Both the position numbers and the translations under genes were made by a program. From Jatrophihabitans sp. (GTDB lineage: Bacteria; Actinomycetota; Actinomycetes; Mycobacteriales; Jatrophihabitantaceae): a DNA stretch of 44,074 nt. The stretch spans positions 1 to 44,074 of the forward strand of contig JAICKR010000005.1 in the NCBI GenBank assembly GCA_025927835.1, written 5' to 3'. Position 1 is the stretch's first letter, and each line of letters starts with the position of its first letter. This document shows positions 4,673 to 25,517 of this stretch, in pieces. A model generated the notes under the pieces. That model was not told the DNA's origin, did no database searches, and saw only the letters and a program-made list of their open reading frames with translations.

Positions 4673-7027
4673 GTGTCAGACCGCGCCCGGGCGCTGAGCA
4701 AGCTTGTGCTCGCCGTCGTCGTCATGGGGTTGATCGCGGCCGTGGCCATGCTGCCGGTCGTGCTGACCGCCGGCGGGGCCGTCGAGTCGGCAGCCGGGCG
4801 CTTCCTCGACGCCTCGTGCGACGTGCACGAAACCGCGCCCCCGCAAGCGTCCACGTTGCTCGCCCGCGACGGGCGGACCGTGCTGGCCCGGCTGTTCACC
4901 CAGAACCGCACGCCGGTGCGGATGCAGGACGTGCCGCCCGTGCTCGTGCGCGCGCTCATCGCGACCGAGGACCGCCGCTTCTACCAGCATCACGGCGTCG
5001 ACGTGCGCGGTCTGTTCCGCGCCGCGCTGCACGACGCGAACGGCGGCGATACCCAGGGTGGTTCGACGCTCACCATGCAGTACGTCAAGCAGGTGCGCTA
5101 CTACCAGGCACGCACCGCCGCGCAGCGCGATGCCGCGATCGCGTCGAACCTCGACCGAAAGCTGCAGAACGCGAAGTGCGCGCTGGCGCTGGAGCGCCGC
5201 TTCACCAAGCACCAGATCCTGCAGAAGTACCTCGACATCGCGTTCTTCGGGGAGAACTCCTATGGCATCGCGACCGCCGCGAAGACGTACTTCGACAGGC
5301 CGGTCGCGCAGTTGTCGGTGCCGCAGAGCGCGCTGCTCGTCGGGCTGCTGCAGGCGCCGTCGCAGTACGACCCGTTCCTGCACGCACTCGCCGCGCGCCA
5401 GCGGCGCAACCAGGTGCTCACGAACATGGTGGCCGTCGGCGCGCTGAGACCGGCCATGGCCGCGCACTACGCGCGCGCCCCGCTCGCGCTCGCGAGCAGG
5501 CGTCCGCCGCCGGTGCCCGAGGGGTGCGCGCACGCGAACCCGGCCGTGCTCAACGCGGGCTTCTTCTGCGACTACGCGCTGAACTGGCTGAGCGAGCACG
5601 CCGTCAGCCAGGAGGAGCTGGACACCGGCGGGTTGCGCATCGTCACGACGCTCGACGCGACGCTGCAGACGCGCGGCCAGCGCGCGATCTGGCGGGCGGG
5701 CCTGCGCCCGGCCTCCGACTACGTGCTGGTCATGCCGTCGGTGGACCCGAAGACCGGCGCGGTGACGACCATGATCACCAGTCGCCGCTACGGGCTGCGC
5801 GGCGCCGGGCGGTCGTCCAACCCGCTGTTCACCGCGGCGTACGCCGGGGCGGGTTCGACCTACAAGTACTTCACCGCAGCCGCGGCCTTGAGCGCCGGTG
5901 CCCCGACGTCGCTCAAGCTCACGACGACGAACAACCAGTACCGCACGAAGAACTGCGCGACGAGGTACCGGGTGCACAACGCCGGGCACTACCCCGACAC
6001 GATGGCGCTGCGGGACGCGCTGCCGCAGTCGTCCAACACCTATTTCGTCGCGATGGAGGACCAGTTCTTCGGCTGCCATCTCAAGCCGGTCGTCGACACC
6101 GCCGTCCGGCTCGGCATGCGACGGCTCGAGGAACCTCTCACCGACAGCGCCTCGACCCCCATCCGGAAGGAAGTCGTCCGCTCCGAGGAGCCGACGTTCA
6201 CCCTCGGCCAGGAGCCGACGTCAGCGCTCGAGCTGACCGGCGCGTTCAGTGCGGCGGCCAATGACGGCGTCTATTGTCCGCCGGCCCCGGTGCTGCGGGT
6301 GCTCGGGCCGGACGGCAAGCCGCGCCACATCGTGCGCCAAGGCTGTCATCGCGTCCTGAACAGCTACGTCGCGCGCACGCTTGTCACGCTTATGCGCCAC
6401 GACACCCACGACGGCACCGCGGCGTCCTACTTCCACGGCTGGTACGCGGGGCATCGCAGCGACGTCGCGGCCAAGACGGGCACCGACAACAACGCGGCCG
6501 ACAACGGCAACTCGGCACTCTGGTTCGTCGGCCTGACCCCGCGCCTCGTCTCGTCGGCAGCGCTGGTGGACCCGGCGAACCCGAAGGCGACCGTGCACGG
6601 CCTGCCCGGCCTGCCCGACTCGTTCGTCAGCCAGGACGTGTTCGGTGCATACGCGTCGACCTACTGGCAGGCCGCGTACCGCTCCGTGCTGCGCGGGCAC
6701 TGGAACTGGCCGGCACCCGGCGCGGTCGGCGGGCGTGCCGTACCCCGGGTCATCGGGTTGAGCCGTAGTGCGGCGGTGCACCGACTGCGCGAGGCCGGGT
6801 TCCGGGTGCAGGTCTTCCCGGTCGCCTGCGGCAGCAGCCGGCCCGCCGGCGAGGTCGCCTATCAGGGCCCGCCGCGCGCACCCGCTCGTTCGGTCGTCAC
6901 GATCTGCATCTCGAGCGGCGACCGGCTGCGGGTGTACGTCCCGCCGCCACCACCACCGAAGTCGTTCCACCCACCGCGGCATCAGTGGCCGGGTCCGCCC
7001 AAGCACCACCACCACGGACACGGCTAG
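4673..7027 (+). CDS. Bifunctional class A penicillin-binding protein with PASTA domain
   Basis: This membrane-anchored enzyme polymerises and cross-links peptidoglycan. From the GTG at 4673 it has 784 residues: a membrane anchor at 11-32; a GT51 glycosyltransferase domain with catalytic E99 in ATEDRRF and the GGSTLTMQ motif at 129-136; a transpeptidase domain with S395-x-x-K398 (STYK), S453-S-N455 and KTG at 601-603; one PASTA-like repeat near 690-755; and a proline- and histidine-rich tail. PASTA domains bind peptidoglycan or beta-lactams. The start is uncertain, because a TTG at 4649 is in frame and neither has a strong ribosome site. It is 42 bp downstream of the NTF2-like gene. Confidence 0.92.
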   Translation: MSDRARALSKLVLAVVVMGLIAAVAMLPVVLTAGGAVESAAGRFLDASCDVHETAPPQASTLLARDGRTVLARLFTQNRTPVRMQDVPPVLVRALIATEDRRFYQHHGVDVRGLFRAALHDANGGDTQGGSTLTMQYVKQVRYYQARTAAQRDAAIASNLDRKLQNAKCALALERRFTKHQILQKYLDIAFFGENSYGIATAAKTYFDRPVAQLSVPQSALLVGLLQAPSQYDPFLHALAARQRRNQVLTNMVAVGALRPAMAAHYARAPLALASRRPPPVPEGCAHANPAVLNAGFFCDYALNWLSEHAVSQEELDTGGLRIVTTLDATLQTRGQRAIWRAGLRPASDYVLVMPSVDPKTGAVTTMITSRRYGLRGAGRSSNPLFTAAYAGAGSTYKYFTAAAALSAGAPTSLKLTTTNNQYRTKNCATRYRVHNAGHYPDTMALRDALPQSSNTYFVAMEDQFFGCHLKPVVDTAVRLGMRRLEEPLTDSASTPIRKEVVRSEEPTFTLGQEPTSALELTGAFSAAANDGVYCPPAPVLRVLGPDGKPRHIVRQGCHRVLNSYVARTLVTLMRHDTHDGTAASYFHGWYAGHRSDVAAKTGTDNNAADNGNSALWFVGLTPRLVSSAALVDPANPKATVHGLPGLPDSFVSQDVFGAYASTYWQAAYRSVLRGHWNWPAPGAVGGRAVPRVIGLSRSAAVHRLREAGFRVQVFPVACGSSRPAGEVAYQGPPRAPARSVVTICISSGDRLRVYVPPPPPPKSFHPPRHQWPGPPKHHHHGHG

Positions 7028-7076
7028 CCAGCGCCACCGCATCGCCGTGGGTCGAGAGCTGGGTTACGGTCCTTCC

Positions 7077-10000
7077 GTGGCGGAGGGAGCCCGACAGGTC
7101 GGCACCCGCTCAGTGCTGTTCACCGACCTCGTCGGATCCACGGAACTGCGCGTCCGGCTCGGCGAGGACGTCGCGGACGAGCTCCGCCGCGCGCACGACC
7201 TGATGATCACCGAGGCCGTCGAGGCGCACCGCGGCACCGTGGTGAAGGGACTCGGTGACGGCGTACTCGCCACCTTCGAGTCGGCGGCCGACGCGGTCGC
7301 CGGGTCCGTCGCGGTGCAGCAGGCTGTGGACTCCTTCGGCCGGCACCACCCCGACCGCGCGTTCGCGGTGCGGGTCGGCATCTCGATCGGCGACGTCTCG
7401 GCCGAGCAGGGCGACGTGTTCGGCGTGCCGGTGATCGAGGCATCACGGCTCTGCGCGACCGCGGGCGGCGGCGAGATCCTCGTCGCCGACCTGGTGCGAG
7501 CCCTCGCCCGCGGTCGGGCGAGGACAGTGTTCGAGCCGATGGGCGAGCTCGACCTGAAGGGGCTGCAGGAGCCACTTGCCGCGTGTCGGGTGGTGTGGGA
7601 GCCCGTCGTCGAACGCGCCGCCGACGCAGCGGACGAGCCGGTGCCGCTGCCCGCGGCGTTAGGCGGGTCGGCGACGAGCTACGTAGGGCGCGACGAGCTG
7701 TGCGAGCGATTGCGCACCGAGTGGGCGGCCGCGCGCGGCGGGTCGTGCCGCACGATCCTGCTCGCAGGTGAGCCGGGCGTCGGCAAGACGCGCACCGCGG
7801 GCGAGATCGCCCGGCAGGCGTACGCCGACGGTGGGCTCGTCCTCTACGGCCGCTGCGACGAGGACCTCGACGTCCCGTACCAGACCTTCGTCGAGGCGCT
7901 GGGTCACTACGCGCGGCACGCCGCGGCGCCCGTCCTGGGCAGGCTGCCCGGCGAGCTGGCCCGGCTGGTGCCTGACCTCGGCACGCACGTCGGCACGCTG
8001 CCGGCCGCGGTCACGTCCGATCCCGCGTCCGAGGAGTACCGGCTGTTCGAGGCCACCGCGTCGTGGCTGATCGAGGCCGCGCGTGACGCCGGCGGGCTGG
8101 TGCTGGTGCTCGACGACCTGCACTGGGCGACGAAGCCGACGCTGCAGCTGATGCTGCACGTGGTGCGCGCCGCGGCGGACGAGCGTGCGCCGATGCTGAT
8201 GATCGCGACGTATCGCGACACCGACGTCGACCGCACCCATCCACTCGCGTCGGTCCTCGCCGACCTGCGCCGGCTGCCCGGCGTCGACCGGCTGGCCGTC
8301 GAGAACCTGAACCTGGACGAGGTACTCCAGCTCATCGAGGCCGCGGCGAGCCTCGAACTCGACGAGGAGATCCGGCTGCTCGCCACGGTCATGTACGGCG
8401 AGACGGAAGGCAACCCGTTCTTCGTCGGCGAGGTGCTGCGCCACCTCGTCGAGACCGGGGCGGTGCGCCGCGACGCCGAGAGGTGGGTGCTGGCCGCACC
8501 CGAACGCATCACGATCCCCGAGGGCGTACGAGACGTCGTCGGACGCCGGCTCAACCGGCTGCCCGTGGTCGCCAACGACGTGCTGTCCGTCGCTTCCGTG
8601 CTCGGCCGCGACTTCGACGTCGATCTCCTGCTCGGCGTCAGTGACGCCACCGAGAACGACGCGCTCGACGCGCTCGATCAGGCGATGCGCGCGCGGCTCG
8701 TCGAGGAGACGGGGGTCGACCACTACCGGTTCGCCCACGCACTCGTGCGCACCACGCTCTACGACGAACTGTCCGCCACCCGCCGCCGGCGGCTGCACCG
8801 CCGCGTCGCGGACGTCCTCGAGAAGCTGCATCCCGACGACGTGCGCGCACTCGCGCACCACTGCACCGAGGCCGGACCGGACGGCGGCGACATCAGCAGG
8901 GCGCTGCGCTACACCCTCGCCGCCGCCGAGCAGTCGCTCGCGGCGCGCGCGTTCGGTGACGCGGAGGCGGGATTCCGCAGCGCGCTGGAACTGCTCGATG
9001 ACGGCGGGCACGACGGTGCGCCCGAACGCGCGGCCGCGCTGTGCGGCCTCGGCGAGGCGCAGCGCGACCAGGGCATCAGCGAGTTCCGCGAGACGCTCCT
9101 GGAGGCCGGGCGCGAGGCGCTCGCGGCCGGGAGCGTGCCGCTGCTGCAGCGTGCCGTGCTCGCCAACACGCGCGGCTTCGCCAGCATCATCGGCGGCATC
9201 GACCCCGAACGGATCGACCTGCTCGCGCGAGCCCTCGAGCTGACCGACCCCGAGCCCAGCGCGATGCGCGCACTGCTGCTGGCGCATCTCTCCTCCGAGG
9301 AGACGTTCGGCGCGAACAAGCAGCGCATGCTTCAATTCGCGGACGAGGCCGCGGCGATGGCCCGGGGCCTGGCCGACCCGGCGCTGCTCGCCCGGGTGTT
9401 CGTCATGACGAGCTATGCCTACGTCAACGGGCCGCGTTACGAGGAGGCGTTGCCCCGCTCGGCCGAGACCGTCGAGCTGGCCGACGGCACCGGCGACCCG
9501 ACGCTGCGCGCGCTCGGGCGGCTCTTCCGGTCCGGCTCGCTCCTCACCATCGGCGAGTTCGGTGCCGCGCAGGAAATTCTGCGCGCCGGCACGGCCATCG
9601 CGGACTCGGAGGGCGCGCCGCTCACGCAGTGGGCCTTGCACAGCAACGCCGTGCGGATAGCAGAGCTGGCCGGCCGCCTCGACGAGGCCGACGCGTTGAA
9701 CAACGCCGCACTCGACGAGGCCAACGCACTCGGCCAGTCGGACGGTGCCGAATGGTGGGCGGCCACTTACACCGGATTGCAATGGCTTCGCGGCAACGCC
9801 GGCGCGCTTGCCGACGCTGCCGAGGAATTCGCGTTGCGCTACCCGTTGAACCCTGCCTGGCGTGCCGTGCAGTCCTGGCTGCTCAGCGATGCGGGGCGGC
9901 ACACCGAAGCGCGCGCCGTGCTGGCCGAGCACCGCCTGGACCCCGTCGACCTGCTGGCCGAGCCGTTCCCGTTCATGGCCACGACGCACGTTGCCTTCGC

Positions 10001-10373
10001 CGGCTGGACCTTGCAGGACACCCAGCTCGCTGCACGGGCGATCGAGGCGCTCGAGCCCTACCGCGGCTGCTGGGCGCACTACTTCCTGTTCATCATGGGT
10101 CCGGTGACCTGGCCGCTCGGACTGTCCTACGCGGTAACCGGCCAGCTCGATCTCGGGGTCGAACTGCTCGACGAGGCGCTGACCAGTGCGCGGGCGAACG
10201 GATTCGCGGCACACGCCGCGTTGATGGCGCTCGATCTCGCGATCGTCCTGGTGCGCCGCGGCACCGAGGGTGACCACGAGCGCGCGCGGGAGCTGCTCGC
10301 GCAGGCCCGCGCGGCGGCGGAGCAGGTCGGCGCGCCGGGCGTCGTCACACGCGTCGAGGCCGTCGCGATCTGA
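7077..10373 (+). CDS. Class III cyclase-domain / AAA ATPase / TPR regulator
   Basis: This is a 1098-residue cytoplasmic signalling protein. Residues 1-175 form a class III nucleotide cyclase domain with metal-ligand candidates D17 (LFTDLVGST) and D61 (GDG). The position of the transition-state asparagine is I120, although R124 remains, so catalysis is doubtful. Residues 195-600 are an AAA_16/STAND-type ATPase with Walker A GEPGVGKT (231-238) and Walker B LVLVLDD (341-347). The rest is helical TPR-like repeats ending without a LuxR helix-turn-helix. The GTG at 7077 begins just before the conserved domain; a GTG at 7047 is an alternative. It probably senses a ligand or partner through the TPR region. 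Confidence 0.85.
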   Translation: MAEGARQVGTRSVLFTDLVGSTELRVRLGEDVADELRRAHDLMITEAVEAHRGTVVKGLGDGVLATFESAADAVAGSVAVQQAVDSFGRHHPDRAFAVRVGISIGDVSAEQGDVFGVPVIEASRLCATAGGGEILVADLVRALARGRARTVFEPMGELDLKGLQEPLAACRVVWEPVVERAADAADEPVPLPAALGGSATSYVGRDELCERLRTEWAAARGGSCRTILLAGEPGVGKTRTAGEIARQAYADGGLVLYGRCDEDLDVPYQTFVEALGHYARHAAAPVLGRLPGELARLVPDLGTHVGTLPAAVTSDPASEEYRLFEATASWLIEAARDAGGLVLVLDDLHWATKPTLQLMLHVVRAAADERAPMLMIATYRDTDVDRTHPLASVLADLRRLPGVDRLAVENLNLDEVLQLIEAAASLELDEEIRLLATVMYGETEGNPFFVGEVLRHLVETGAVRRDAERWVLAAPERITIPEGVRDVVGRRLNRLPVVANDVLSVASVLGRDFDVDLLLGVSDATENDALDALDQAMRARLVEETGVDHYRFAHALVRTTLYDELSATRRRRLHRRVADVLEKLHPDDVRALAHHCTEAGPDGGDISRALRYTLAAAEQSLAARAFGDAEAGFRSALELLDDGGHDGAPERAAALCGLGEAQRDQGISEFRETLLEAGREALAAGSVPLLQRAVLANTRGFASIIGGIDPERIDLLARALELTDPEPSAMRALLLAHLSSEETFGANKQRMLQFADEAAAMARGLADPALLARVFVMTSYAYVNGPRYEEALPRSAETVELADGTGDPTLRALGRLFRSGSLLTIGEFGAAQEILRAGTAIADSEGAPLTQWALHSNAVRIAELAGRLDEADALNNAALDEANALGQSDGAEWWAATYTGLQWLRGNAGALADAAEEFALRYPLNPAWRAVQSWLLSDAGRHTEARAVLAEHRLDPVDLLAEPFPFMATTHVAFAGWTLQDTQLAARAIEALEPYRGCWAHYFLFIMGPVTWPLGLSYAVTGQLDLGVELLDEALTSARANGFAAHAALMALDLAIVLVRRGTEGDHERARELLAQARAAAEQVGAPGVVTRVEAVAI

Positions 10374-15491: not shown

Positions 15492-16844
15492 TCAGCCCGA
15501 CCGCGCGGCGAAGATCGGCCAGGTACCGGGCACGCCCTTGAGTTCGTGCGTGCCGTGGTCGTCGAAGGCCACGTCCGCGCCGGCGAGCATCAGCCGGACG
15601 ACGTCGGTGACGAAGACCTGATCGGCACCCGCCAGGTCGCATACCCGTTTGGCGATGCTGACCGGCAGGCCCACGACGTCGTCCGGCCGTACCTCGACCT
15701 CGCCGGTGTGCACGCCTGCGCGCAGTTCCAGTCCCAAGGCGCTTGCGGCTCGCACGATCTCCAACGCTGCCCGCACCGCCCGCGACCCGGCATCGAACGT
15801 CAGCAGGAAGCCGTCACCCGTCGACTTCACCTCACGACCCTGATAGCGCTGCACGGTTGCCCGGGTCATCGCGTCGTGTTCCTCGACGAGCCGCGTCCAC
15901 CGTCGATGGCCGAGCCGAGCCGACTGTTCGGTCGAGGACACGATGTCGGTGAAGAGCACGGATGTGGTGACGACCTGACCCTCAGGAGCCTGGCGACCGC
16001 CGGTCAGGAAGTCCTGCAGCTCGTCAACGAGGGCGTCGACCTCGCCGACGAAGAACAGGTTGTCGATACCCGGCAACTCGACGTATCTGGCCCCGGGGAT
16101 GGACGCCGCGAGGTAGCGGCCCGCGTCGGCCCTGATGTAGCGGTCGCCGTCGCGATGTAGCACGAGCGTCGGGACACGCAACGTCGTCAACAAGTCCGTG
16201 ACGTCCGTCGACAGCGCCCGGCGAAGGCTCGCCGCCGCCTGATCAGGCGGTTGCCCGAGCCGCTCGAGTCGGGCGATGCGCTGCCGGAACAGGGCGTCCG
16301 CAGCCCTGCTGGGTGCGAGCACGTCGACGGACATGCCGCTCCCCCACGACGGGATCAGCTCGAGGAACCGGTCCAGGTCGGACTCCCGTAGCCCGATCGG
16401 ATACTCCGGCGTCCGCAGGTAGCGGGCGAACGTGTCGATCAGCACGAGCGCACGAACCCGATCGGGATGGTCGTGCGCGTAGCGGATCGCGAAGGGTCCC
16501 GCGACACCGAATCCGACGACGACGACCTCGCCGCATCCGGCATCGTCGAGCACGGCGGAGAAGTCGTCGTTCACGGTGTGCCCGTCGAACAGCTCGGTCC
16601 AGCTACCGCCTGACCCGCCAAACCCGCGCGCGCTGCCCCAGATGCTGCGGCTGAAGCGCGCGACTCGTCGCGCGAAGTGCGCGAAGCTCGGCTCGTCCCA
16701 GAGCAGGTCGAACGGGAACGAGACGACCGGCGTCCACAGCACATCCAGCGGCCCGTCGCCGAGGACGTGATAGCCGAGGCTCACGCCGTCCGGGGCGGTC
16801 GCGTACCGCGTGTCGGGCCGCTGGTCCACGACGGTGAGTATCAC
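15492..16844 (-). CDS. Alpha/beta-hydrolase fold fused to class III cyclase domain
   Basis: This 450-residue protein joins an N-terminal alpha/beta-hydrolase domain (about 12-285) to a C-terminal cyclase domain (about 292-448). The nucleophile elbow reads GFGVAG at 111-116: glycine 113 replaces the serine, so the hydrolase domain probably only binds a ligand. The cyclase half keeps metal-ligand candidates D300 (LFTDIVSST) and D344 (GDG) and arginine R400, but serine 396 stands where the transition-state asparagine is expected. It may make cyclic nucleotide weakly or act as a sensor scaffold. It starts with GTG at 16844. The 155-bp gap to the convergent gene on its left holds no clear terminator. 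Confidence 0.85.
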   Translation of the reverse strand: MILTVVDQRPDTRYATAPDGVSLGYHVLGDGPLDVLWTPVVSFPFDLLWDEPSFAHFARRVARFSRSIWGSARGFGGSGGSWTELFDGHTVNDDFSAVLDDAGCGEVVVVGFGVAGPFAIRYAHDHPDRVRALVLIDTFARYLRTPEYPIGLRESDLDRFLELIPSWGSGMSVDVLAPSRAADALFRQRIARLERLGQPPDQAAASLRRALSTDVTDLLTTLRVPTLVLHRDGDRYIRADAGRYLAASIPGARYVELPGIDNLFFVGEVDALVDELQDFLTGGRQAPEGQVVTTSVLFTDIVSSTEQSARLGHRRWTRLVEEHDAMTRATVQRYQGREVKSTGDGFLLTFDAGSRAVRAALEIVRAASALGLELRAGVHTGEVEVRPDDVVGLPVSIAKRVCDLAGADQVFVTDVVRLMLAGADVAFDDHGTHELKGVPGTWPIFAARSG

Positions 16845-18345: not shown

Positions 18346-19619
18346 GCCCGGAACAGCTCCGGGTCGGCGACCTTCGGCGCCTCCAGCCCGATGCGGCGGA
18401 ACAGTCGCCACAGCGCGTCCAGATGCGGGCCGAGGACGGGCTTGCCGCTGGTGATGAACCCGACCGCGAGCTCGCGGCGCGGGTCGGCCCACATCGACAC
18501 GTTGGTGAAGCCCAGGTGCCCGAACGCCTCGTCGGTGTCCGGCCCGTACAGGCTCATCGTCTTCGCCCCGAGCATGAAGCCGTGCGAGTAGCGGATCGGG
18601 AAGCCGAGGGTGCGGTCGAACTCGTGATACGACGTCTCGACTGTCGCCCGCCGGATCGTCCGCGGCGCCATCACCTTCACCCCGTCGAGCGTGCCGCCCG
18701 CACGCAGCAGGTCCATGAACCGCGACATCTCGTTCGCGGTGGACACGACGTTGCCCGCCGGGACGATGCCGGTCAGGAGCCGCGGGTCGTTCGAGAGCAG
18801 CGTCAGCTCGTCGATCGGCATCCCCAGCGCACGCGCGAGCATGCCGGACACCGGCGGCATCGCCGGCGGCCCGGTCGGGTAGGCGAGCCCGACGAGCGGG
18901 ACGTCCTCCGGCGCGACGCCGTAGTTCATCCACCGGAAGCCGAGCGGGTGGAGGATCTCCTCGGCCAGCACCGTGCGGATGTCCTTGCCCGTGAGCCGCC
19001 GCACGACCTCGCCGAGCACGAACCCGCCGGTCACCGTGTGGTACGCGACCGCGGCCCCCGGCCGGTGCACGCTGCGCAGCTTCGGGATGGCCTCGATGAT
19101 CCGCTCGGGATCCTCCAGCCGCTCCAGATCCATCATGCTGCGCGGCAGGTGCGGGATGCCGGCGCGGTGCGAGAGCACCTGCGCCACGGTGATCGAGTCG
19201 CGTCCACCGCCGGCGAACTCGGGGATGAAGTCGGTGACCCGATCGCTCAGATGCAACAGGCCGCGTTCGGCGAGCACGTGCATGACGGTCGCGGTGACGG
19301 CCTTGGACGAGCTGAACGTGCAGAACGGGGTCTCGGGTGTCGCCAGCTCCCGCTCGCCGTCGCGCGGGTCGGACGGCCCGCCGCCGCGGGCCCAGCCGAT
19401 CGCGCGGTCGAGCACGACCTCACCCTGCCGACGCACGGTGAGCGTGATGGCCGGGCTCATGCCCCGCCGGAAGAGCCGCTCGACGCCGGTCCAGATCCGA
19501 TCGATACCGGCCGTGGACATCCCGACCCGCTCCGGGTCGGCCTCGTGCTCACTGCGGGTGGTGATCGATGCCAGATCACGAGGCACGCGCACGCGCCGCA
19601 GGGGATTCACGCGACTCAC
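18342..19619 (-). CDS. Beta-lactamase-fold serine hydrolase (class C/esterase-like)
   Basis: This 425-residue protein has the beta-lactamase/transpeptidase-like fold: S103-x-x-K106 (SSSK) as nucleophile and general base, Y193 in AYHT standing for the YxN motif, and a late HLGF segment in place of the KTG box. This set is typical of actinomycete esterases such as LipE rather than true beta-lactamases. There is no signal peptide, so it is probably cytoplasmic and acts on esters or amides of lipids. GTG at 19619 follows a minus-strand TAGGCT (19632-19627) by 7 nt, another leaderless-type promoter. The 78-bp divergent gap also serves the peroxidase gene. Confidence 0.85.
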   Translation of the reverse strand: MSRVNPLRRVRVPRDLASITTRSEHEADPERVGMSTAGIDRIWTGVERLFRRGMSPAITLTVRRQGEVVLDRAIGWARGGGPSDPRDGERELATPETPFCTFSSSKAVTATVMHVLAERGLLHLSDRVTDFIPEFAGGGRDSITVAQVLSHRAGIPHLPRSMMDLERLEDPERIIEAIPKLRSVHRPGAAVAYHTVTGGFVLGEVVRRLTGKDIRTVLAEEILHPLGFRWMNYGVAPEDVPLVGLAYPTGPPAMPPVSGMLARALGMPIDELTLLSNDPRLLTGIVPAGNVVSTANEMSRFMDLLRAGGTLDGVKVMAPRTIRRATVETSYHEFDRTLGFPIRYSHGFMLGAKTMSLYGPDTDEAFGHLGFTNVSMWADPRRELAVGFITSGKPVLGPHLDALWRLFRRIGLEAPKVADPELFRA

Positions 19620-19684
19620 GGGCCGCAGCCTATGGGGAAATCCGGCTCCCTACCCTCCGGTAGCGCAGGTACGCGCCGTAGCAG

Positions 19685-19690
19685 TACGTT
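19685..19690 (+). promoter_or_regulatory. -10 element of the peroxidase gene
   Basis: TACGTT fits TAnnnT and ends 7 nt before the ATG at 19698. With no Shine-Dalgarno sequence, a leaderless transcript is likely. Confidence 0.4.
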
Positions 19691-19697
19691 CCGCGCC

Positions 19698-21506
19698 ATG
19701 AGTCCTCAGTGGTATGAGCACCCGTCCCTGCTCCTGCAGCTGGCGAGCCTCTCGAAGCTGCGCGGCGACCTTCGCGAGAAGAACCTGTTCGAGGGCGACG
19801 ACCTGCGTCCCGACCTCTCCGCCGACCAGCCGCCCGAGTCGGCGCTCAAGGCCCGCATGTCGGACGGCACGTGGAACGACCTCGCGTGCCCCGCGATGGG
19901 CGCGAAGGGCACCGGCTTCGGCCGCAACGTGCCGGTCGAGATGACGAAGCCGAACCTCAAGCGACTGCTCGACCCCGACCCGCGCGTCATCAGCCGCGAA
20001 CTCATGGCCCGCGACACGTTCAAGCCGGCCGGCATCATCAACGCGCTCGCCGCCGCGTGGCTGCAGTTCGAGAACCACAACTGGTTCTTCCACGGCGACG
20101 GCGTGCCCGGCCGCAACATCGAGATCCCGCTGCAGGACGGCGACGACTTCCCCGAGAACCCGATGAAGATCCGCGAGACGATCCCGTTGCACGGCGAGAT
20201 CGTCGACGGCAAGCCGGCCCCGGTGTTCGCGAACCAGGAGACGCACTGGTGGGACGGGTCGCAGATCTACGGCAGCGGCAAGGTGCGCCAGGACGAGGTG
20301 CGCACCTTCATCGACGGCAGGGTGAAGGTCGAGGACGACGGCCGGCTGCCCAAGAGCGACGTGCTCGGCATCGACCTCACCGGCATGCGGGAGAACTGGT
20401 GGGTGGGCGTCGGTCTGCTGCACACGCTGTTCGCCCGCGAGCACAACTCCGTCTGCGCCGCGCTGAAGAAGTCCTACCCCGGCCTGGACGACCAGCGGCT
20501 GTACGAGATCGGCGTGCTGGTCGTCTCGGCGCTCATCGCGAAGATCCACACCGTCGAGTGGACGACCTGCGTGTTGCGCCACCCGGCGCTGCAGATCGGC
20601 ATGAACGCGAACTGGTTCGGCGCACTCGGCGAGACGTTCAAGGACAAGGTCGGCCGCCTCGGTGACAGCGAGGTGCTGTCCGGAATCCTCGGCTCCGCGA
20701 CCGACCACCACGCGGCACCGTTCTCGCTGACCGAGGAGTTCGTCTCGGTCTACCGGATGCACCCGCTCATCCCGGACGACTGGGAGTTCTTCTCCCTCGC
20801 TTCGGGGGAGCTGCTCGAAACGGCAGAGTTCACAGAGCTGCAGGGCAAGTACACGCGCGACTTCATGGACCGCATGGAGATGGGCGACATGTGGTACTCG
20901 TTCGGCAAGGCCAGCGCAGGCGCGGTGTGCTTGCACAACTACCCGAACGCGCTTCGCAAGCTCACCCGGGTCGACGGCCAGATCACCGACCTCGCGACGC
21001 TCGACATCGTCCGTGACCGGGAGCGCGGCGTGCCGCGCTACAACGACTTCCGCGAGGCGCTGCGCATGCCGCGGCGCAAGTCGTTCGAGGACATCACGCC
21101 CAACAAGCAGTGGGCGAAGGAGATGGCCGAGATCTACAACGGCGACGTCGACAGCGTCGACCTGCAGATCGGCATGCAGGCCGAGAAGCCGCCGAAGGGT
21201 TTCGGCTTCTCGGACACGGCCTTCCGCATCTTCATCCTGATGGCGTCGCGGCGGCTCAAGAGCGACCGGTTCTTCACCAACGACTTCCGCCCCGAGGTGT
21301 ACACGCAGCTCGGCTACGACTGGGTCAACAACACGACGATGAAGGACGTCCTGATGCGCCACTATCCGGAGCTCGAGCCGGTGATCGGCGACGTCGACCG
21401 CGTCTTCGCGCCGTGGCACGAGATCGGCGCGAAGGAGCCGGGCCAGAAGCCGCGCATCGTGCGGCTCGCCGACACCGTGCGTTCGTACATGCCCTGGGAC
21501 ATCTGA
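19698..21506 (+). CDS. Animal-type haem peroxidase, cyclooxygenase/alpha-dioxygenase-like
   Basis: This 602-residue haem protein of the animal peroxidase superfamily carries a distal histidine H127 in QFENHNWF, the WWDGSQIYG motif (184-191), and VYRMHPLIPD at 351-360. In that segment Y352 and H355 align with the catalytic tyrosine and proximal haem histidine of prostaglandin synthase (YHWHPL). LLHTLFAREHN (240-250) is also family-typical. The retained tyrosine suggests fatty-acid dioxygenase rather than simple peroxidase chemistry. It lacks a signal peptide, unlike animal enzymes. The gene 18 bp downstream is probably co-transcribed. A plain peroxidase role remains possible. Confidence 0.88.
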   Translation: MSPQWYEHPSLLLQLASLSKLRGDLREKNLFEGDDLRPDLSADQPPESALKARMSDGTWNDLACPAMGAKGTGFGRNVPVEMTKPNLKRLLDPDPRVISRELMARDTFKPAGIINALAAAWLQFENHNWFFHGDGVPGRNIEIPLQDGDDFPENPMKIRETIPLHGEIVDGKPAPVFANQETHWWDGSQIYGSGKVRQDEVRTFIDGRVKVEDDGRLPKSDVLGIDLTGMRENWWVGVGLLHTLFAREHNSVCAALKKSYPGLDDQRLYEIGVLVVSALIAKIHTVEWTTCVLRHPALQIGMNANWFGALGETFKDKVGRLGDSEVLSGILGSATDHHAAPFSLTEEFVSVYRMHPLIPDDWEFFSLASGELLETAEFTELQGKYTRDFMDRMEMGDMWYSFGKASAGAVCLHNYPNALRKLTRVDGQITDLATLDIVRDRERGVPRYNDFREALRMPRRKSFEDITPNKQWAKEMAEIYNGDVDSVDLQIGMQAEKPPKGFGFSDTAFRIFILMASRRLKSDRFFTNDFRPEVYTQLGYDWVNNTTMKDVLMRHYPELEPVIGDVDRVFAPWHEIGAKEPGQKPRIVRLADTVRSYMPWDI

Positions 21507-21524: not shown

Positions 21525-22175
21525 ATGACGACCTCGACCGACACGTCGTCCGGGTCCGCAGCCGAGCGCGTCGCGCTGTTGCGCGAGCGCGCCGCGCACG
21601 AGCCGGCCGCAGTGCAGGAGACCGCCTGGCAGTGGGTCCTCGACCTCAAGGAGCGCTCCGGTAGCGACCGCAAGGGCGCCGACGCCGAGCTGGACGAGCT
21701 GTTCCGCACCGGCACCGTCCCGCGCGGGCTGGACGGTCCGACCGACGGCATCCTCGTCACCACGACGACGAACGCGGTGCTCGATCCCGCCGTGCGGGCG
21801 ATCACGAGCATGTGGATGCCCTGGCAGGGGAAGCGCTTCGATTCGGCCGCCGCGAGCGGCGACAACCGCATGACGACGTCGTCGTCGGTCGCGTCGAAGC
21901 TGCTCTGGCCGTTCTACCGGATGAAGGACGCCCAGGACGGCAAGCTTGCCTTCGACTTCAAGACGTACGAGGACGACGGCAAGGACGACCCCGACCTGCG
22001 TGTCATGGTCATCGACTACGCCGATATCGAAGACAACCCGCGCCTGGTGATCCGCAGCATTCGAGACGAGCTCGTCGAGATCGCGGCCGGCGCCTACCTC
22101 GGCAAGATCCTGTTCCGTACCCCGCGCGGGAACTACGAGAAGATCGGCTTCTTCGCGCTGCGCACGAACGGCTAG
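21525..22175 (+). CDS. Unknown partner of the haem peroxidase
   Basis: This 216-residue soluble protein follows the peroxidase by 18 bp, with GGAGG (21515-21519) before its ATG. Residues 1-50 are helical and charged. The middle holds LFRTGTVPRGLDGPTDGIL and a MPWQGKRFDS segment that recalls GXWXG/DUF4334-type proteins. The end has DELVEIAAGAYLGKILFR, a beta-barrel-like motif seen in small ligand-binding families. I cannot assign it firmly to any family. The tight linkage suggests it binds the substrate or product of the dioxygenase, such as a fatty acid, or protects cells from it. Confidence 0.7.
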   Translation: MTTSTDTSSGSAAERVALLRERAAHEPAAVQETAWQWVLDLKERSGSDRKGADAELDELFRTGTVPRGLDGPTDGILVTTTTNAVLDPAVRAITSMWMPWQGKRFDSAAASGDNRMTTSSSVASKLLWPFYRMKDAQDGKLAFDFKTYEDDGKDDPDLRVMVIDYADIEDNPRLVIRSIRDELVEIAAGAYLGKILFRTPRGNYEKIGFFALRTNG

Positions 22176-22273
22176 CCCGCCTGTCGGGTGGCCACGTGGA
22201 CCCGATCACATCTACGTGTGTCGCTGCGCGGGTTTGCCGATGACTGCGGGCAGGATCAACCCCAGACATAGGT

Positions 22274-22310
22274 GTGGGGCCCTGTCATGTATGAGATGAC
22301 AGGGCCCCAC
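22274..22310. terminator. Strong hairpin after the peroxidase operon
   Basis: GTGGGGCCCTGTCAT (22274-22288) and ATGACAGGGCCCCAC (22296-22310) form a perfect 15-bp stem with a 7-base loop. It lies 98 bp after the stop at 22175. No T-run follows, as is common for actinomycete terminators. Confidence 0.75.
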
Positions 22311-22325
22311 GTTCGTCGAACCGCC

Positions 22326-22720
22326 CCGCCGATGCGAAGATCAACTGGCTTGCCCGACACGATCGAACCCGCTTTGCGAACCCAAGGGCCCACTGCGCCG
22401 ATCGACCGCTCGGTCTCACCGCCCCGCTGATCCGGAGACCAACCGGCTTGCTTGACCTACCGGCTGCGCTGCTTCGTCGTTCCGAAGACCGACCAGCTTG
22501 CTCAACCGGGTGATCGCGCCGCTCTGCCGATCCGAAGACCGACCAGCTTCCACGATCTGGCCAAACCGCTCTGCCGATCCGAAGACCGACCAGCTTGCCC
22601 GACCTGACCCGACTGCCTTGCTGATCCGAAGATCAACCGGCCTTTCCGAGCCAATCACTCGCCTGAGTACCGATCCTCTCGAACCGGTTTCCCGGCCGAT
22701 CCGACCTGTCGAAAGTTGCC
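22326..22720. repeat. Degenerate tandem array, about 47-50 bp period
   Basis: The core CCGAAGACCGACCAGCTT recurs with decay. The anchor base before CCGAAG or its variant lies at 22431, 22481, 22531, 22578 and 22625, with weaker copies at 22333 and 22674 and a very eroded one near 22380. Spacing is 50, 50, 47, 47 and 49 bp. Copies at 22481-22604 are almost identical in the core, and a CCGCTCTGCCGAT stretch precedes two of them. The period is not a multiple of three, so it is not coding on either strand. No similar array occurs elsewhere in the window. Confidence 0.8.
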
Positions 22721-22816
22721 TTCCGACTTGGTACTCCGCGCTGCGATGTGGAATTTCTACTGGCCGCGGAAGGGCCGCGCAAGTGGTAGTCGCAAAGTCG
22801 TTCATGATCTTTTTCG

Positions 22817-22903
22817 TCGTCCACAGAAGTGGCTGGGTTATCCCCCGACGCAGAGAGTTTTGCACCGCGTCGTCCACAGTTTTGATCAACTTCTTGTGGA
22901 CGA
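22817..22903. promoter_or_regulatory. Three DnaA-box-like sites
   Basis: TCGTCCACA occurs at 22817-22825 and 22870-22878, and inverted at 22895-22903. It differs in one base from the actinomycete DnaA box TTGTCCACA. TTATCCCCC at 22838-22846 is a weaker match. The cluster is in a locally AT-richer stretch between the tandem array and the end of fadH. Binding by DnaA is inferred. Confidence 0.4.
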
Positions 22904-22904
22904 A

Positions 22905-25517
<2,613 letters not shown>

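Follow-up and report, generated by a model that had tools for sequence, protein, structure and literature searches.

A degenerate tandem repeat between two convergent genes of Jatrophihabitans sp. is almost certainly part of a structured non-coding RNA gene on the minus strand, as its predicted fold and its relatives indicate. Compensatory changes among the array copies indicate that they are maintained by selection on the pairing of this RNA. The repeat was studied within a stretch of 44,074 nucleotides (contig JAICKR010000005.1, positions 1 to 44,074, assembly GCA_025927835.1), which we call the window.

The repeat array and its surroundings

The array lies in the gene-free stretch 22176-22904, flanked on the left by an orphan gene for 216 amino acids that ends at 22175 and on the right by a FadH/OYE-type oxidoreductase gene that ends at 22905. 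A sequence-only reading of this DNA had described seven to eight degenerate units of 47-50 bp, the best of them in the middle. The array is real by three measures. Tandem Repeats Finder gives 22481-22632 (period 47, score 158) as the top-scoring array of the window; a repeat search finds six in-register copies, starting at 22315, 22413, 22463, 22513, 22560 and 22607; and autocorrelation peaks at lags 47 (0.43) and 50 (0.42), against a maximum of 0.39 over 500 dinucleotide shuffles. A consensus scan adds a weak seventh copy, in phase, at 22370. The copies in mid-array are indeed the best preserved, and seven units stand; the eighth (about 22653-22702) is instead part of domain I, another domain of the RNA.

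The 18-base core, CCGAAGACCGACCAGCTT, occurs three times exactly and once with three mismatches, where 0.03 occurrences would be expected in the window. A search for the core and a comparison of copy number had been suggested: the former gave no exact match outside the array in the source genome sequence (76% complete), and the latter showed that copy number differs between species. The period of 47-50 nt disfavors a coding repeat. A CRISPR array was also considered and rejected; the unit and “spacer” parts pair together in every unit, and only three cores are identical.

The orphan protein (21525-22175, plus strand) has no match in Pfam or NCBIfam, and neither plasmids nor 24 genomes of the family contain a relative; because it lacks such relatives, we place its gene outside the RNA system. 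Elsewhere in the window are a protein of 1027 aa that includes an animal-type haem peroxidase domain (18423-21506, plus strand), a LipJ-like fusion of an alpha/beta hydrolase with a guanylate/adenylate cyclase domain (15492-16844, minus strand), and a large protein resembling TOMM kinase/cyclase fusions (6768-10373, plus strand).

Layout of the RNA gene

The features of the putative gene, in the direction of its transcription, are as follows.

22895..22903, minus strand: DnaA-box-like site TCGTCCACA, one mismatch (motif scan)
22870..22878, minus strand: DnaA-box-like site, TGTGGACGA on the RNA strand, one mismatch (motif scan)
22817..22825, minus strand: DnaA-box-like site, TGTGGACGA on the RNA strand, one mismatch (motif scan; predicted only)
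22777..22782, minus strand: promoter-like -35, TTGCGC (12 of 14 loci keep a TTGYGC-type element, N17/18 from the -10)
22754..22759, minus strand: promoter-like -10, TAGAAA (conserved in relatives)
22270..22747, minus strand: inferred non-coding RNA of ~475 nt (folding z -8.0 over 22745-22274; homologues in 12 of 399 genomes)
22660..22740, minus strand: domain I, a three-way junction that holds the CCGGGAAACCGG hairpin (fold; consensus of relatives)
22605..22652, minus strand: hairpin unit 7, first in the RNA (fold, own-arm pairing and unit model, as for units 6 to 1)
22558..22605, minus strand: hairpin unit 6
22511..22558, minus strand: hairpin unit 5
22461..22508, minus strand: hairpin unit 4
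22411..22458, minus strand: hairpin unit 3, UCCG loop
22361..22408, minus strand: hairpin unit 2, CUUG loop, diverged sequence but fold kept
22313..22360, minus strand: hairpin unit 1, last in the RNA
22274..22310, minus strand: terminal hairpin GTGGGGCCCTGTCAT-CTCATAC-ATGACAGGGCCCCAC (perfect 15-bp stem; loop conserved)

The ends of the RNA are placed by sequence, with the start about 7 nt past the -10 and the end just beyond the terminal hairpin, which is probably the 3′ end or terminator of the transcript. A hairpin had been noted as preceding the array and DnaA-like boxes as following it. Both exist, but with the gene on the minus strand they have to be read in the opposite order: the “preceding” hairpin would be the 3′ end of the RNA, and the “following” boxes would be its upstream region.

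Pairing on the minus strand

Only one strand of the array folds more stably than expected by chance. The minus strand folds better than all of 100 shuffles (z -4.9) and the plus strand worse than all of 100 (z +2.1); G-U pairs, common in most units, account for the failure of the plus strand. As minus-strand RNA, every 47-50 nt unit is predicted to form an outer stem, an internal loop, a 3-bp stem, a second internal loop and a 7-bp stem that is capped by a tetraloop. The loop is UUCG in four units and lies inside a hexaloop in one more; UCCG and CUUG occur once each. Unit 2 looks decayed in sequence, yet it retains the hairpin fold.

The pairing of each unit's 5′ arm with its own 3′ arm gives the lowest mean energy among all 5,040 permutations. 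In an alignment of the units, 8 of 18 pairs have changed on both sides. The covariation score is 0.45 versus 0.25 in shuffles, none of 500 shuffles reaching 0.45; this shuffle test takes the units as unrelated, and the permutation result and the relatives outweigh its figure. The signal is lost when partner columns are slid by 1-3 positions, and the score rises to 0.49 when the units of a second genome (G002, below) are added.

Homologous loci

A covariance model of the unit, run against 24 genomes of the family, detected one further array, of three units and with E-values down to 2e-7, in G002, a genome from the same genus. The two loci are orthologous: the OYE gene (82% identity) is followed in G002 by conserved sequence, the array and then a terminal hairpin, whose loop is identical to that of the window and whose stem is compensated. 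There, the array has a folding z of -6.5 on the RNA strand and -3.8 on the other, with the near-palindromic terminal hairpin included. In G011, a genome from another genus, the same locus is present but lacks the array, and comparison of the three shows that TTGCGC-N17-TAGAAA and the terminal hairpin are conserved. Isolated matches to the unit model elsewhere in the order (E 0.0006-0.006 per genome), as well as those in G010, G015 and G018, were treated as chance.

A search of the order for the terminal hairpin, allowing up to three mismatches, returned 14 places in 12 of 399 genomes, and a reversed control pattern returned none. Nine of these places are in family f1 (eight genomes), two in f13 (one genome) and three in f9. 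The search employed a strict terminal-hairpin pattern, and the true range of the gene family is likely wider than 12 genomes. All 14 loci have DnaA-box-like sites, promoter-like sequence, RNA and terminal hairpin in the same order. The promoter-like sequence is of the TTGYGC-type N17/18 TA-G/C-AAA type in 12 loci, and the -35 is TTGACG in the other two, both of them among the three f9 loci. Neighboring genes differ between groups (OYE, PEPCK, biotin carboxylase, tryptophan dioxygenase, S8 protease, SDR); they are unrelated, and the RNA gene therefore appears to stand alone rather than to be part of an operon. Conservation in relatives, the absence of which had been named beforehand as one part of the grounds for abandoning a functional array, is thus present. 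Of the roles put forward earlier, that of a repeated non-coding RNA agrees with the one-strand structure, the compensatory changes and these homologous genes.

Most relatives carry the RNA in a single-copy, short form, of which seven copies align over about 205 nt. Their consensus of 61 pairs comprises a three-way-junction domain, one unit-type hairpin and the terminal hairpin. In the alignment, 94.6% of cells pair, 21 pairs have changed on both sides, and the covariation score of 0.358 (0.218 in shuffles) is reached by none of 500 shuffles. One such RNA alone folds with a z of -7.8. When the terminal hairpin is left out, the RNA strand still beats the other strand relative to shuffles at 11 of 11 loci, by a small margin in G008 and G035a.

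The loop of the terminal hairpin, CTCATAC, is identical in 13 of the 14 places found, and the stem is compensated. Its context, AUCUCAUACAU, likewise shows no difference among 13 of the 14 copies, which come from three families. Termination would require less conservation than this, and a protein or an RNA may bind here.

These data bear on the idea that the hairpins serve stability, insulation or termination, as an extreme tandem terminator without specific partners. The window locus does lie between convergent genes, its loops are tetraloops of highly stable classes, and its terminal hairpin resembles a terminator. However, other loci are not always between convergent genes, the RNA has a promoter-like sequence of its own, and the three-way junction and internal loops are conserved. 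We consider this explanation unlikely.

Several carriers deserve separate mention. Two genomes, G009 (f1) and G035 (f13), have two RNA genes each (including L150, G009:C375, and L153, G035:C291); both are draft bins with possible contamination. One copy in each has neighbors in common across the families (biotin carboxylase, acetyl-CoA hydrolase), which could reflect paralogy, transfer or bin contamination. In G006, extra GGGAAACC/GGGAGACC-type hairpins stand between domain I and the unit hairpin (L136, G006:C1:3185351), as if another part of the RNA were being multiplied. The f9 loci (L154, L155, L156) place the gene between a RecQ-like helicase + SDR pair and a glycosyltransferase-like + polysaccharide-deacetylase-like pair, these names other than SDR having been assigned by eye.

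Expansion of the hairpin domain

The hairpin domain is present in seven copies in the window, three in G002 and one in most relatives, so several copies are not required; many carriers are draft bins, and assembly could affect these numbers. In family f9, the G143 locus has about nine to eleven hairpins with GCAA loops, at a pitch of 45-49 nt for most steps, and the pairing of their own arms is better than all of 20,000 random assignments. Folds of the two further f9 loci apparently contain two or three such hairpins. Because the loop and sequence in G143 differ from those of the window, the data argue for a separate expansion of the hairpin there.

Minisatellites of the MIRU-VNTR kind are also intergenic tandem units of about 50 bp whose number varies between genomes. 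The minisatellite proposed earlier is correct only as to the origin of the copies, as copy number varies between species; what maintains the copies is selection for their pairing as RNA. A neutral element of the MIRU/VNTR type would account for an array that is tandem, degenerate and variable in number. It would not account for the compensatory changes, for folding on one strand through G-U pairs, for the conservation of both flanks and of a single-copy form in relatives, or for a separate expansion at similar pitch. We regard it as barely credible.

DnaA-box-like sites

To the right of the array, TCGTCCACA occurs three times, each copy one mismatch from TTGTCCACA, the box that DnaA binds with high affinity in M. 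tuberculosis and S. coelicolor (PMC4285127). Sites with up to two mismatches to TTGTCCACA number 3-6 per 150 nt at all 14 loci versus 0.3-0.9 in shuffles, an enrichment of 3-10 fold or more at every one. At several loci, the boxes share one orientation and have positions near -117, -105, -93, -74 and -53 relative to the -35. Those of the window, with one mismatch each, are 40-120 nt upstream of TTGCGC-N17-TAGAAA, and their arrangement is not the one seen most often; as a -10, TAGAAA matches the consensus imperfectly. We rejected the notion that the boxes are mere arms of an RNA stem, as relatives place them upstream of the conserved promoter-like sequence. Because near-consensus actinobacterial boxes are upstream of promoter-like sequence at every locus, DnaA control is plausible, and we judge it an even call that DnaA regulates the RNA gene. 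The suggestion that the array units are themselves protein-binding sites on DNA found no support; the flanking DnaA-box-like sites remain a plausible DNA-binding array.

The main rival to our explanation reverses the roles. The upstream DNA would be the functional element, either a DnaA-titrating or -recharging site (datA/DARS-like) or a DnaA-dependent RNA-primed origin, and the RNA or its transcription would serve it. Consistent with this, boxes are found at 14 of 14 loci with mostly similar spacing and orientation, RNA-based origins are known in mycobacterial prophages (PMC7157519), and transcription modulates datA in E. coli (PMC10950094). On the other hand, structural selection on the RNA is strong and includes a compensated expansion, which a mere transcript does not need. 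Further, the G006 locus is at 3.19 Mb, off the rough GC-skew minimum of about 2.35-2.45 Mb (weak skew, 20 samples), which may speak against a chromosomal origin there, and plasmids and phages gave no match. No dnaA or dnaN was seen near the loci. We hold this rival to be somewhat unlikely.

As in E. coli datA and DARS, a single intergenic block contains multiple near-consensus DnaA boxes at these loci; unlike there, the putative boxes lie directly upstream of a conserved RNA gene. In Streptomyces, clusters of DnaA boxes occur outside oriC.

Comparison with known systems

Rfam 15 has no gathering-threshold match in the window, and relaxed thresholds gave only chance-level matches in the window and 13 homologous loci. 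We found no earlier report of this RNA in the open-access literature. The gene thus appears not to have been listed before, and we set it in no named family. Searches that relied on sequence similarity were similarly unproductive: the array DNA matched only a chance coding region among 41 genomes of the order (L002), a two-core pattern found only an unrelated 15-bp repeat of Streptomyces ipomoeae in the genome contigs (L012), and viral contigs contained scattered single cores and no terminal hairpin. Comparing synteny around citrate synthase did not reveal the RNA either.

We also weighed whether the RNA is a divergent, Ms1/6S-like binder of RNA polymerase. The two share the character of a structured intergenic actinobacterial RNA with its own primary-sigma-like promoter, the single-copy form is about 200 nt, and Ms1 is hard to recognize from sequence (PMC9130861). 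The consensus, however, has three separate domains, among them the three-way junction, rather than a long hairpin with a central bubble, and there is no Rfam 6S match. The neighbor genes also differ: in most species, that of Ms1 is a HAD hydrolase gene (PMC9130861), and none was among the neighbors examined by Pfam. The upstream DnaA-box-like sites go unmentioned in the 2014 Ms1 paper (PMC4191392). Kinship with Ms1/6S is therefore very unlikely.

Another parallel may be in CsrB/RsmZ, in which many similar hairpins are also found in one RNA (seven units here), and in which the number of sites could set the amount of protein held (PMC5027483). The likeness would be one of logic only. The GGA loop motif is absent, the loops being UUCG, UCCG and CUUG, with GCAA in G143. 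Further, whole hairpins with internal loops are conserved here, and copy number shifts by tandem expansion.

Proposed mechanism

We propose the following sequence of events. The RNA would be transcribed from the TTGCGC-N17-TAGAAA promoter and would end at the terminal hairpin, and DnaA bound upstream could tie expression of the RNA to the state of replication. Each hairpin would be a docking site for one RNA-binding partner, and copy number would set how many partner molecules are held per RNA, as CsrB holds CsrA. Gain or loss of units by slippage or recombination could then tune this holding capacity. Because the number of modules varies while each module stays intact, we take multi-site binding to be the likeliest function; such a role is plausible, though not quite probable. 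The explanation as a whole, that is, a structured minus-strand RNA gene with DnaA-coupled expression and multi-site binding hairpins, is offered tentatively, at a little under an even chance.

Significance

Structured bacterial RNAs that are missing from Rfam turn up regularly, but a domain that multiplies in tandem with compensated pairing in each copy is unusual. These loci could represent a new class of replication-coupled regulatory RNA, in which a DnaA-box array governs transcription, a fast-evolving, expandable hairpin domain sets the number of binding sites, and separate expansions have taken place in at least two actinobacterial families; this broader claim is possible but rather doubtful. 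The copy number across species provides a natural dosage series, and the upstream array of DnaA-box-like sites makes it possible to test whether the replication initiator is directly linked to a regulatory RNA. More generally, what looks like a minisatellite between genes of a GC-rich genome can turn out to be an RNA domain, legible on just one of the two strands.
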